Assembly (NCBI RefSeq): GCF_000969885.1
Contig: NZ_CP009501.1
Span: forward strand, 1,922,001 to 1,986,000
DNA length: 64,000 nucleotides
Direction: 5' to 3'
Origin: Methanosarcina thermophila TM-1
GTDB taxonomy: Archaea; Halobacteriota; Methanosarcinia; Methanosarcinales; Methanosarcinaceae
Made by a program: the position numbers and the translations under genes. Positions 15,549 through 39,439 of the stretch are shown here, piece after piece. The stretch's first letter is position 1. Each line of letters starts with the position of its first letter. The notes under the pieces are model-generated. The model did not search any database, was not told the DNA's origin, and was given only the letters and a program-made list of their open reading frames with translations.

Positions 15549-15643
15549 ACTCACTTCGTTTGCTCAAGAGAGCTGAACTAGGGGCAAAAGAAACTATTTT
15601 TTAACTTAGAGCGCTTAGCACCTCAGTTTCGGTGGCTTCTCAC

Positions 15644-15664
15644 GCTTCGCCCTCAGGCTTCGCC
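15644..15664. repeat. GCTTCGCC direct repeat in a GC-rich spacer
   Basis: GCTTCGCC occurs at 15644-15651 and 15657-15664, 13 bp apart. Together with the 15524-15541 hairpin it marks a GC-rich, repeat-prone spacer directly 3' of the KAP-FGE gene. A further inverted repeat TACTTC/GAAGTA lies at 15681-15706, just past that gene's stop. Confidence 0.5.
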
Positions 15665-15719: not shown

Positions 15720-18128
15720 TTACAGTTCCCTCAGGAGGCGGAAACCAAGATCTCTGTAGCGGCTGCCTTGGTCGTACCAGTAGCGGTGCGCTGACCGGCA
15801 AAGCCTGGGGTCGTAGTACCAGCTACCGCCCCGCAGGATACGGAAGGAGATATCTCCATCTTCCCAAGCACTGCCATCAGAAGGAGCTCCTTCGTAACTA
15901 TTGTGCCATCTGTCCTGAACCCATTCCCAAACATTACCATGCATATCATAAAGACCCCAAGGATTAGGTTGTTTTTGACCAACAGGATGAGTTTTTTCCC
16001 TGGAGTTCTTATAATACCAGGCATAATCTCCGAGTTTTGACTCGTCATCACCAAAAGAATATCTTGAGGTAGTACCTGCACGGCAGGCATATTCCCATTC
16101 AGCTTCAGAAGGGAGACGGTACTTATCAGTGCCTTTTATTTCATTGAGTTTTTTGATAAACTTCTGAACATCATCCCAAGAAACAGATTCTACAGGTAGA
16201 TCATCACCTTTGAAACTGGAAGGATTCATGCCCATAATTTTTTCCCACTGCTTCTGAGTAACCGGGTATTTACCAAGGTAAAATGAATTTTCGATTTTTA
16301 CACTATGAACTGGCTTTTCATTATCATACTCATTGGACCCCATAATGAAATATCCCGCAGGGATCCGAATAAATTCGATTTCATCAAAAATAAAAGAAGG
16401 AAGCTCAGTACCTTTTTCCAGAGGTGCAACCACAGGTGAGATCTGCAACAGCTTGCTAAAGTCAAGGCCTGAAAGGGTAAAATCTTCTGGTTTTTTAAAA
16501 GGATCATTCCCTTGACAGCCGTATCTCAATAAATTGATCAACCTTTTATCTCTTGCCCACTTTTCCAGATTTTCATTATTATCTTCCGGAATTAACCCCG
16601 AGATTGATACATATTGTAATTGATCTAGAAGTTTACTATTAGAACCAAGAGCTGAAACCAGAGAAGGCCACTTTATGCTTATTGCCACGAATTTTGCTAA
16701 TTTTTTACAGTTCCACATATTTCCGGGGTTGGTCCCCACATCATAACAAAAGAGGCCCGTTCTTTTCCCTATAGTTCTCTGAAAACGGAACTGATTTATA
16801 AACTGTTTTATCCGGCGAGGGTTATTATCCAGAGCAGGGGCAACCATTTCAAGAATCAGTTTTGAGGTTTCATAATCTTCCACACAATCCGTGTCATTCT
16901 GAATCTCCTGTTTATTTGATTCTGGTACAACAGTACTGGAGTCATTTATTACTGGCTTTTGTCCACTAGTTTCATTCTGTGAGGATTTGGTGTCACTCTC
17001 AAGAGATTCACGGGGGGCAGAATTATCCGATGAATCTCGTTTGTCCACAGCTTCTAGCTGCTTAGAGGAAGATTCTTTTTCATAGAAGGGGAAAAATTTT
17101 AAAAAATCAGTGCTTTTTGGACGAGGAACTCTAAAGGGGAGCTGGATGAATTTTTCAATGAATTCATACCCGTATTCAAGCCCATCGACATCTAAGAACC
17201 TGAAAACTTTTTCGTTTTTAGCTGCGAACCCTGCAGAGACAACTTTTCTATCCATTCCCAGGATAAAATAAACCTTTGGATCATCCGAGATCATCAGGTT
17301 AATTGCCTGCATTAGTTCTGCTGCCTTTGGGACTTCACAGCGGTCGAGATCGTCAATAAAAACATAGACTTTCGAATCTCCGACATAGGATTTGATTATT
17401 TTGTTAAAGTCGGAATGAAAGTGCTCTCTAAAAGATAGGCGTTCCTTGTAATTCGTATTTGATTCAAGCTTTTTTAGACCGAAAGGATCTCTAAACACAT
17501 CTATAAACCACTTTTCGGCAGAAAAATAGCGCATGAGGCCCACAAGTGGAGTTAAGATCAATACAAGATTGGTTAAGTTTTCGATTAACTTATCACTTAA
17601 CTTATCATCAATAAAGTCTGGTAAACGCATTCCAAGAGGATTCAAAATATAAGTAATAAACAAAAACGAAAATGAAAAAATAAGTACGAAAGAAAGAATG
17701 TTCCAGGAGAAATGAACAATAATTAAAAAATTACTTTTCAATTTAAGTTTGTATCTCAGATAAAACAATTTGAGCCTTGAATGTTGTAGACGTTTCCATG
17801 AAAGCTGCTTCGATAACTCATCCATGAAATTAAGTGCAAAAGAAGCCCATAACTCATCTTCCTTGTCATATTTCCAGGAATTGAACCATACAGTAAAATA
17901 TTTGGTTTCTTTCTCAAGTTCATTTTTTTTGCTGATTTCCTTTCTTAACTGTTGCATGAAAGATGATTTACCACACCCCCACTGCCCCTCAATAGAAAGA
18001 GTAATCGGAGCTAAAGTTTCCTCAGAGGTAAGAAATTCTGCAATTGCCTCAACGTAAGGTTGAAATCCTAGTGAATCTTCTCCTGTTGGAGTGTCAATAT
18101 GCACACAGTAAGATTCTGATCTCGACAT
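15720..18128 (-). CDS. membrane-anchored KAP-family P-loop NTPase fused to an FGE-sulfatase (SUMF1-like) domain
   Basis: An 802-residue fusion. The KAP NTPase part has Walker A EGQWGCGKSS (about residues 47-56), two transmembrane segments inserted between the Walker motifs (about 134-162 and 184-200), Walker B VYVFIDDLDRC (about 254-264) and the family's NNPRRIKQFINQFRF. A Ser/Asn-rich linker (about 355-415) precedes the rest. From about residue 583 an FGE/SUMF1 C-lectin-type domain runs to the end (IPAGYFIMGS, YRLPSEAEWEYACRAG, GLYDMHGNVWEWV, RILRGGSW, LGFRL). The catalytic Cys pair of true FGE is absent, so it probably binds rather than modifies. A start at 18170 is possible, but GGTAGGCGAT favours the ATG at 18128. 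The last ~110 bases are about 62% GC (68/110), against 12 of 60 in the membrane segment. Confidence 0.85.
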   Translation of the reverse strand: MSRSESYCVHIDTPTGEDSLGFQPYVEAIAEFLTSEETLAPITLSIEGQWGCGKSSFMQQLRKEISKKNELEKETKYFTVWFNSWKYDKEDELWASFALNFMDELSKQLSWKRLQHSRLKLFYLRYKLKLKSNFLIIVHFSWNILSFVLIFSFSFLFITYILNPLGMRLPDFIDDKLSDKLIENLTNLVLILTPLVGLMRYFSAEKWFIDVFRDPFGLKKLESNTNYKERLSFREHFHSDFNKIIKSYVGDSKVYVFIDDLDRCEVPKAAELMQAINLMISDDPKVYFILGMDRKVVSAGFAAKNEKVFRFLDVDGLEYGYEFIEKFIQLPFRVPRPKSTDFLKFFPFYEKESSSKQLEAVDKRDSSDNSAPRESLESDTKSSQNETSGQKPVINDSSTVVPESNKQEIQNDTDCVEDYETSKLILEMVAPALDNNPRRIKQFINQFRFQRTIGKRTGLFCYDVGTNPGNMWNCKKLAKFVAISIKWPSLVSALGSNSKLLDQLQYVSISGLIPEDNNENLEKWARDKRLINLLRYGCQGNDPFKKPEDFTLSGLDFSKLLQISPVVAPLEKGTELPSFIFDEIEFIRIPAGYFIMGSNEYDNEKPVHSVKIENSFYLGKYPVTQKQWEKIMGMNPSSFKGDDLPVESVSWDDVQKFIKKLNEIKGTDKYRLPSEAEWEYACRAGTTSRYSFGDDESKLGDYAWYYKNSREKTHPVGQKQPNPWGLYDMHGNVWEWVQDRWHNSYEGAPSDGSAWEDGDISFRILRGGSWYYDPRLCRSAHRYWYDQGSRYRDLGFRLLREL

Positions 18129-18441
18129 ATCGCCTACCAAAAGAATTAACTCCGTCTTTAATTCATTCATAACATATTTATACAGATCCTCTGAAATGGA
18201 ATTTGAAGACTTTATTTTTTAAAGAAGCTCGATTCTTCTCAATTTTTTACTAACATGCATTATAAATATTTATTGAAATTATCAAATCATTAAAAAAGAT
18301 TGAACAATATTTCCTATTTTTAATACAATTAGAAGAGATAATGCATTGAGATAAAAAATAATTTAACTCCGTTTATCCAGTATTCTTAGAGCTTCAGTTA
18401 TAACCTACCTTACATTTAGGTCTGGACCATCCAGATTTATT
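18129..18441. other. AT-rich region upstream of the KAP-FGE gene
   Basis: About 310 bases, very AT-rich, with no supported gene. It should carry the KAP-FGE promoter on the minus strand. CATTATAAATATTTATTG near 18258 contains TATA-like sequence in both directions. The right end is the 3' flank of the SAM hydrolase gene; no clear terminator is visible. Confidence 0.4.
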
Positions 18442-37960: not shown

Positions 37961-38626
37961 TTACACGCTTTTGCTTTTAGGAGATACGAAAATTTTCTTT
38001 GCAATGTCTCTTCCAAGGGCAATTTCTGATCCTACTGCCATGACCGAGATACAACCCTGTTTTTGCTTGCGCCTTACCTCAATATCTTCTCCGGTAAGAA
38101 TACCGAGGGAGATCAGACGTTCCTTTGTTTCCTTGGGGAGGGCTACCCGCGCTACTTTACCTGAACTTCCCTCTTCCATCTCGTCAAGTGGGATGAACTT
38201 CTCATCTCGTCTGATGTTATTTTTGTCAAGATTGATAGGGTTTCCATCAGGGCAGTACTCTGGACTTCCAAGGAACTTGTAGAGCCTCTCAAGTACGGCA
38301 TCAGATACTGCATGCTCAAGCTCGCAAGCTTCTTTATGGGCATCCCTCCTATCGAAATCCAGGACGTCAACCAGGAAAGTTTCAAGCACCTGATGCTTTC
38401 TTTTAATCTTAATAGCCTGGTCAGTTCCTTTTTCGGTCAATTCGACTCCTTGATAAGGTGTATACTCCACAAGTCCCGAAGAATATAACTTTTTTATCAT
38501 CTCCGTCACGCTCGGCGGAGATACATTGAGTTCTTCAGAGATCTGTTTGGTCTTTGCAGGTCCCTTGTTCTTTCTAATAAGATAGAGGATAGTCTCAAGA
38601 TATTCTTCAAATCTATCAATGTTCAT
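37961..38626 (-). CDS. iron-dependent DtxR/MntR-family repressor with FeoA-like domain
   Basis: A 221-residue metalloregulator. The winged helix is at residues 1-65 (EYLETILYLIRKNKGPAKTKQISEELNVSPPSVTEMIKKL), the dimerisation and metal-binding domain follows (RKHQVLETFLVDVLDFD, EACELEHAVSDAVLERL with Glu/His ligands), and a C-terminal FeoA/SH3-like domain is at about 150-215. Fe(II) probably acts as corepressor, since feoB follows directly. A palindrome TTAGG-ATAA-CCTAA 41 bases upstream of the start is the likely operator, giving autorepression of the repressor-feoB operon. GGTGGGAT precedes the ATG. Confidence 0.92.
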   Translation of the reverse strand: MNIDRFEEYLETILYLIRKNKGPAKTKQISEELNVSPPSVTEMIKKLYSSGLVEYTPYQGVELTEKGTDQAIKIKRKHQVLETFLVDVLDFDRRDAHKEACELEHAVSDAVLERLYKFLGSPEYCPDGNPINLDKNNIRRDEKFIPLDEMEEGSSGKVARVALPKETKERLISLGILTGEDIEVRRKQKQGCISVMAVGSEIALGRDIAKKIFVSPKSKSV

Positions 38627-38666
38627 TAATATCCCACCAACATATACCTGACTTTAGACCAGATAA

Positions 38667-38680
38667 TTAGGATAACCTAA
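38667..38680. promoter_or_regulatory. DtxR-type operator palindrome
   Basis: TTAGG-ATAA-CCTAA, a perfect 5+4+5 inverted repeat 41-54 bases upstream of the repressor gene. TTAGGnnnnCCTAA-like sites are typical for archaeal and bacterial DtxR/IdeR-family regulators. Its position near the promoter supports iron-dependent autorepression. Confidence 0.6.
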
Positions 38681-38818
38681 AAAAGGATACTGCTTGAATA
38701 AATAATTTTTGTTTCTGGCAGTTTACATCTATTTTAAATACTATACATCGAATCACTGCGGATTCTATTTTAAATTCTTAAGAAAAGAAAAATAGTAAAG
38801 ATCAGTCTCGGAAGAAAT

Positions 38819-39298
38819 TCAGGAATTGATCGATTTCAGAACAGCAACTTCATTACAATCCGGAAACTTGGGGCATTTCAGACAACCGGACCAGATCTTC
38901 CTGGGAAGGCTATTCTTATCTACAATCTTGAAGCCCAGAGTTTCGAAAAATTCAGGCACGTAAGTAAGTGCAAAAACTTCCTTCATGCCAAGATTTTCAG
39001 CATCCTCAAGGCAGGCTAAGACAAGCTTTGTACCTATTCCTTTTCTAGCACACTTGGGATTCACGGCAAGGGCAAGTATCTCTGCAAGGTCTTCCCATAC
39101 TACATGCAGGGCACAGCAACCCACAACCTCTCCGTCAATCTCACAGACGTAATAATCTCTGATATTTTCGTACATCTCACTCAGTGAGCGGGGGAGCATT
39201 AGCTCTTCCTTAGAATAAATATTGATGATCTGCTTCATTGCAACAACATCATCTACCCTGGCTTTCCTGATCAATTCGCGTTTCCTCTTAGGTGACAT
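38819..39298 (-). CDS. GNAT N-acetyltransferase, N-acetylglutamate-synthase-like
   Basis: A 159-residue acetyltransferase. The GNAT core is visible as IRKARVDDVVAMKQII, YYVCEIDGEVVGCCALHV and the acetyl-CoA pyrophosphate loop VNPKCARKGIGTKLV (about residues 79-93). The C-terminal LPRKIWSGCLKCPKFPDC segment, with its CxxC-x5-C cysteines, is characteristic of a short archaeal/bacterial branch annotated as amino-acid N-acetyltransferase (ArgA-like). Arginine biosynthesis is plausible, but no arg genes are adjacent. Confidence 0.75.
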   Translation of the reverse strand: MSPKRKRELIRKARVDDVVAMKQIINIYSKEELMLPRSLSEMYENIRDYYVCEIDGEVVGCCALHVVWEDLAEILALAVNPKCARKGIGTKLVLACLEDAENLGMKEVFALTYVPEFFETLGFKIVDKNSLPRKIWSGCLKCPKFPDCNEVAVLKSINS

Positions 39299-39439
39299 TT
39301 TATTTTTAATAGAATGGGCTGCACCGGCTTATATATAAAAATATACCGTGTCCTGCAATGGAATTACTCTCTACAGATAAAAAATTTTCCATAATTCGCA
39401 CGGAAATATTTTATAAAAAAGCAGATTAAAGGAAATTAG

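Follow-up and report, generated by a model that had tools for sequence, protein, structure and literature searches.

A KAP NTPase-FGE gene of Methanosarcina thermophila as a probable fossil target of a diversity-generating retroelement

Among prokaryotic systems, diversity-generating retroelements (DGRs) come closest to receptor hypermutation. The DGR of Bordetella phage BPP-1 consists of Brt, Avd, TR, Mtd and a hairpin after VR, and efficient retrohoming requires that hairpin (PMC3240598). KAP is named among the NTPases of the NTPase-FGS conflict systems (PMC8195603), and a survey of DGR clade 5D lists KAP NTPase targets (PMC10907252). In both, an NTPase carries an FGS/FGE lectin-fold domain as its C-terminal fusion partner, the DGR components are adjacent or elsewhere in the genome, and invader sensing has been proposed. 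KAP-FGE sensors with DGRs are already known, mainly from bacteria. Here we describe a gene of this NTPase-FGS fusion type in a 64,000-nt stretch of the M. thermophila TM-1 genome (NZ_CP009501.1, positions 1,922,001 to 1,986,000; hereafter the window).

The KAP-FGE gene and its variable tail

The initial annotation of the window had proposed a KAP P-loop NTPase fused to an FGE/C-lectin fold, and Pfam matches and Walker motifs bear this out. The intact gene (15720-18170, minus strand) encodes 816 aa, with a KAP_NTPase domain at aa 36-462 (16785-18065, minus strand; Pfam E 2.7e-36) that contains Walker A at aa 62 (GQWGCGKSS), Walker B at aa 268 and, between them, hydrophobic peaks at aa ~145-180 and ~195-215. 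The FGE-sulfatase/C-lectin-fold domain spans aa 599-814 (15729-16376, minus strand; Pfam E 3.4e-57). The gene had been placed at 15720-18128, and while the fusion ORF stood, the start did not: 18128 is the second ATG, and the first ATG, at 18170, is the better start because similarity to a relative reaches back to about aa 3. With dN/dS against relatives of 0.17-0.34 (KAP part), 0.18-0.28 (FGE body) and, where calculable, 0.25-0.63 (tail), the gene is under purifying selection.

An AlphaFold2 model of the FGE domain (pLDDT 94.4) gave TvpA (2Y3C, TMq 0.92, the highest TM-score listed) and PvdO (0.90) as its best PDB matches in Foldseek, in agreement with the suggested fit to a TvpA-like C-lectin fold. 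In a sequence alignment, the C-terminal GGSW...GFRL stretch of TvpA coincides with the variable tail of the window gene, and the predicted C-lectin-fold domain would thus be the part that carries the variable residues, as in a DGR target by descent. The catalytic cysteine pair of FGE is absent, as had been claimed: the tail holds a single cysteine, so the pair is impossible, and alignment with human FGE gave the same result. The protein is accordingly unlikely to be a formylglycine-generating enzyme, which has this pair in its C-terminal part.

Base composition and comparison with templates delimit a putative DGR-derived variable region (GGC GGT AGC TGG ... CTG AG) at 15730-15830 on the minus strand. 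Its 3' end is the IMH-like sequence GGTTTCCGCCTCCTGAG (15730-15746, minus strand), where target-template homology stops in relatives, and its template-Asn positions are aa 785-787, 790, 795, 797, 799, 803, 806 and 807. The codons read as the initial annotation had quoted them, and the tail is as GC-rich and NNC-rich as described there. GC content is 0.627 over 110 nt, vs about 0.40 before the tail, and is matched by only 0.02% of 110-nt stretches in the window. NNY codons end in C or T at a ratio of 19:5 in the tail vs 126:297 in the gene body (Fisher p 1.8e-6); the FGE domain minus the tail gave 31:87. When we attempted to date the loss of diversification through decay of these C residues, about half of the third-position C had already changed between the available species.

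Adenine-directed variation and templates in related archaea

An alternative is an ordinary FGE/SUMF1-like protein, its tail altered through drift or positive selection with no retroelement involved. Such a protein would share the GGSW...CRSA.R...GFRL framework, which is indeed common to ordinary FGE proteins, as the initial annotation had cautioned, and would be at home in a genome that has no DGR. The variation within the tail argues against this account. Across nine KAP-FGE orthologues, identity was 0.10 at the ten template-Asn sites, compared to 0.58 for the tail framework and 0.71 for the domain body, whereas two ordinary FGE paralogue groups from the same genomes kept the same ten positions (identity 0.66 and 0.92) and showed little or no contrast at A sites; these tail-variation figures are comparisons between species. 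Among the variable codons, the third base mostly stays C and the first base changes, the reverse of evolution by point mutation, and templates with adenine-only mismatches adjoin the same type of gene. We therefore regard ordinary divergence as quite improbable.

The mismatches themselves fall preferentially on adenines. Compared to the template of G110, which belongs to a sister genus, the window tail differs at 18/33 A sites and 18/87 non-A sites (p 6e-4; p 0.0048 for the 93-nt core alone), and compared to a non-cognate Methanolobus template it differs at 24/40 A and 19/80 non-A sites. This bias is absent outside the tail, where comparison with the G110 KAP-FGE gene gave odds ratios of 0.99 (KAP part) and 0.80 (FGE body); in both of these parts, it is the third codon position that varies most. 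In the same comparison, mismatch frequencies at codon positions 1/2/3 were 0.17/0.11/0.31 in the FGE body and 0.35/0.29/0.29 in the tail; at template AAC codons, 8/10, 3/10 and 3/10 positions differed, so that the first base changes most. Cognate target-template pairs were available from relatives, and mismatches were almost confined to template adenines in four of the five comparisons. These were Methanolobus (17/40 A, 2/80 non-A), G097 (28/33 A, 3/87 non-A), G111 (17/33 A, 3/87 non-A), the G110 caspase-FGE gene (21/33 A, 3/87 non-A) and the G110 KAP-FGE gene against its own template (13/33 A, 7/87 non-A). The 18/87 non-A mismatches of the window tail, the cognate template of which is lost, compare with 3/87 in most cognate pairs. 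Measured against templates from relatives, the variable region thus appears to differ mainly at adenines, as would be expected for a DGR target by descent.

A template core, TGCCGGTCRGCGAACCGCAACNNNAAC, was inferred from the tails of many relatives and then used as a search query. With up to 3 mismatches allowed, its only matches among the 31 genomes of the genus were the window gene and a single site in G010. Among the 186 genomes of the order, there were matches in eight, real DGRs included, and in two of the eight, Avd and a DGR-type reverse transcriptase (RT) lie beside the template. The recovery of this template lends weight to the proposal that the tail is a formerly diversifying face, altered by mutation at template adenines.

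One complete DGR, from the uncultured archaeon LFW-280_2_2 (G097, L205), comprises an FGE target, an HRDC protein, Avd, the RT (motifs VPIGSLTSQ and YMDD) and then the template. A second, from Methanolobus psychrotolerans YSF-03 (G149, L206), has the same component order and an RT that is 68% identical; both combine an IGxLTSQ RT with an AAC-rich template. The HRDC-domain protein lies between target and Avd in both (L205:6434-6949, with a matching gene in L206). The G097 RT shares 36% identity with Brt of Bordetella phage and at most 50% with the DGR RTs of bacterial plasmids, the best of which, from Prosthecochloris, has an adjoining Avd; plasmid and phage records yielded only distant DGR RTs (≤50% identity). 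In viral contigs, the predicted template had no exact match and the DGR RT query no relative. The group II intron and retron RTs of the genus were rejected as DGR RTs, the intact readable ones having QGGxxSP or QGAPTSP rather than IGxLTSQ. We found no report of DGRs from Methanosarcina or Methanolobus genomes in the open-access literature searched.

Other FGE fusions with variable tails were seen as well. Those at L022 and L113 have N-terminal parts that resemble TIR/SEFIR domains by eye. Caspase-FGE fusions with DGR-like tails occur in the family at L204:8542-10718, L145:6978-9131, L083, L011, L012 and L102, and at L204 and L145 they are preceded by a small gene without a Pfam match.

Absence of the machinery and probable decay at one locus

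The initial annotation had noted that the window holds no RT or template, and the same is true of the whole genome, a single contig of 3.127 Mb. Searches of this contig with RVT_1 and with the archaeal DGR RT were negative, BLAST and the predicted-template and framework patterns revealed no second copy of the tail, and the covariance model of the template 3' RNA had no hit. The suggested search for a near-copy of the tail beside a DGR-type RT therefore came back empty on both counts, and the genome lacks the DGR-type RT and matching template of a complete or active DGR. Of the two observations named beforehand as speaking against a diversified tail, the absence of template and RT from the genome proved true, while a lack of excess tail variation proved false, the excess between species being strong at template-Asn positions.

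A post-target inverted-repeat element is present at 15613-15664 (minus strand). In the archaeal loci examined, this element mostly lies 78-96 nt behind variable FGE tails, and its stem covaries among relatives (87% of cells paired; covariation score reached in 0/500 shuffles). By analogy, it may do the same job as the BPP-1 hairpin. The window element is present, but its 6-bp stem is broken, and it would not form a hairpin or cruciform.

Since the gene is intact and conserved, with no DGR RT, template or 3' RNA in the genome and with a broken hairpin, its binding face is most likely frozen. We conclude with high confidence that the gene is a fossil DGR target, that is, a KAP-FGE sensor with a binding face once diversified by a DGR, of which one variant was fixed in place when the machinery was lost. 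The KAP NTPase would be coupled to an FGE/C-lectin sensor domain as in NTPase-FGS conflict systems. An AAC-rich template would have been reverse-transcribed with random bases at adenines, and the diversified copy would then have retrohomed into the 3' end of the gene, altering the C-terminal binding face. Template, template 3' RNA and RT, all absent today, would have disappeared from the lineage of this Methanosarcina, and the intact gene would have retained a single binding-face variant. Ligand binding at the lectin face might be relayed by the NTPase into a defensive or cell-death-like response; domain architecture and the literature suggest that KAP-FGE acts as an invader sensor.

The locus appears in several states among relatives. 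The gene order DUF62 - KAP-FGE - radical SAM - L1 is common to the window, G003, G007, G010, G110 and others. Between DUF62 and radical SAM, G110 carries KAP-FGE, a truncated template, a small gene, a caspase-FGE gene with a variable tail and a non-coding template. In G010, a KAP remnant with stop codons is fused to a template and its 3' flank; the AAC-rich tail there was considered as a stand-alone template and rejected, being this joined remnant. Target and template probably recombined in G010, with deletion of the intervening DNA. Template-flank relics also adjoin KAP remnants in G024 and G001, and the window and G003 have an intact KAP-FGE gene with no adjoining template found.

Recombination of the kind seen in G010, together with the several fused FGE genes with common framework DNA that some relatives have per genome, could suggest that tails were exchanged between FGE paralogues through recombination or gene conversion. 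Swapping, however, relocates variants and does not generate adenine-directed NNC variants, and the three FGE genes of the window genome include no near copy of the tail. We give this explanation a very small chance of being correct, and favor the fossil target.

Two genomes of the sister genus in which no DGR RT was found, G110 (single contig; L204:8441-11150) and G111 (near-complete; L203:6045-6660), contain template-target pairs whose differences are fresh and nearly all at adenines. The only RTs found in G110 are group II-like, and G111 has no RT match. Directly 3' of the templates lies an element of ~130-180 nt (L204:11151-11330 in G110; L144:7416-7595 in G010), with further copies in G023, G024, G111, G112, G113, G106, G149 and G155. 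Template flanks are 96.7% identical between G110 and G010, compared to 75-84% for coding genes at this locus. Genomes that lack an RT also carry related copies, and some of these follow other FGE genes that have variable tails. The element had no credible match in Rfam. It may be structured, with a 3' hairpin ACCGCUGCC...GGCGGUAGCGGU; its folding-energy z-scores are near zero, so it is sparse covariation that points to a structure. Recent loss of the RT, an RT acting in trans and recent exchange of elements are all possible explanations for the RT-less pairs and their conserved flank. That these are orphan DGRs of the Methanosarcinaceae, in which templates, a conserved structured 3' RNA and lectin-face sensors persist and are still being diversified although no RT resides in the genome, the enzyme being non-canonical (e.g., of a group II intron) or provided in trans by mobile elements, seems to us an unlikely though not far-fetched proposal.

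A related question is whether the window tail itself is still diversified by a trans RT from a Methanosarcina virus or plasmid. The very fresh pairs in G110 and G111 are compatible with such a source, as is a DGR-type RT that is 37.7% identical to that of G097, in the Methanosarcinales virus record BK063673.1 (Caudoviricetes sp. vir525, 38327-39307). A trans RT alone would nevertheless be insufficient because the template and 3' RNA are missing from the window genome and the post-target stem is broken. Continued diversification is thus very improbable, and a frozen tail remains the preferred reading.

Comparison with described systems

Unlike the NTPase-FGS and clade 5D reports, which are mainly from multicellular bacteria, the window gene is in an archaeal methanogen and its RT and template are lost. 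Its KAP part resembles the PADLOC models of PifA and QatA (E ~1e-22), which act in phage exclusion and defense; the match is confined to the NTPase part and does not extend to the FGE part. With TvpA of Treponema denticola, a DGR target, it shares the fold and the place of the variable stretch within the domain, whereas TvpA has no KAP NTPase fused to it and occurs together with a DGR. The archaeal relatives resemble BPP-1 in their adenine-directed differences, Avd, Brt-like RT and inverted repeat after the target; in BPP-1, however, the repeat lies 4-34 nt after the target, compared to 78-96 nt in the archaea, and the window itself has the target only. As in EACC1/caspase conflict systems (PMC7159879), caspase-FGE genes with fresh variable tails occur beside KAP-FGE in the sister genus; unlike in those systems, caspase-FGE is absent at the window locus, and the small neighbor gene in the sister genus has no Pfam match.

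Compared to what has been described, the methanogen setting, the decay stages at one locus and the template-target pairs without any RT are new. They matter because, in methanogens, they document both an immune-receptor-like system and its decay. Within one archaeal family, a syntenic sensor locus is found as a fresh target-template pair, as a template collapsed into its target and as a frozen tail, which makes it possible to test how useful a sensor is after diversification stops and how RT-less template-target pairs originate.
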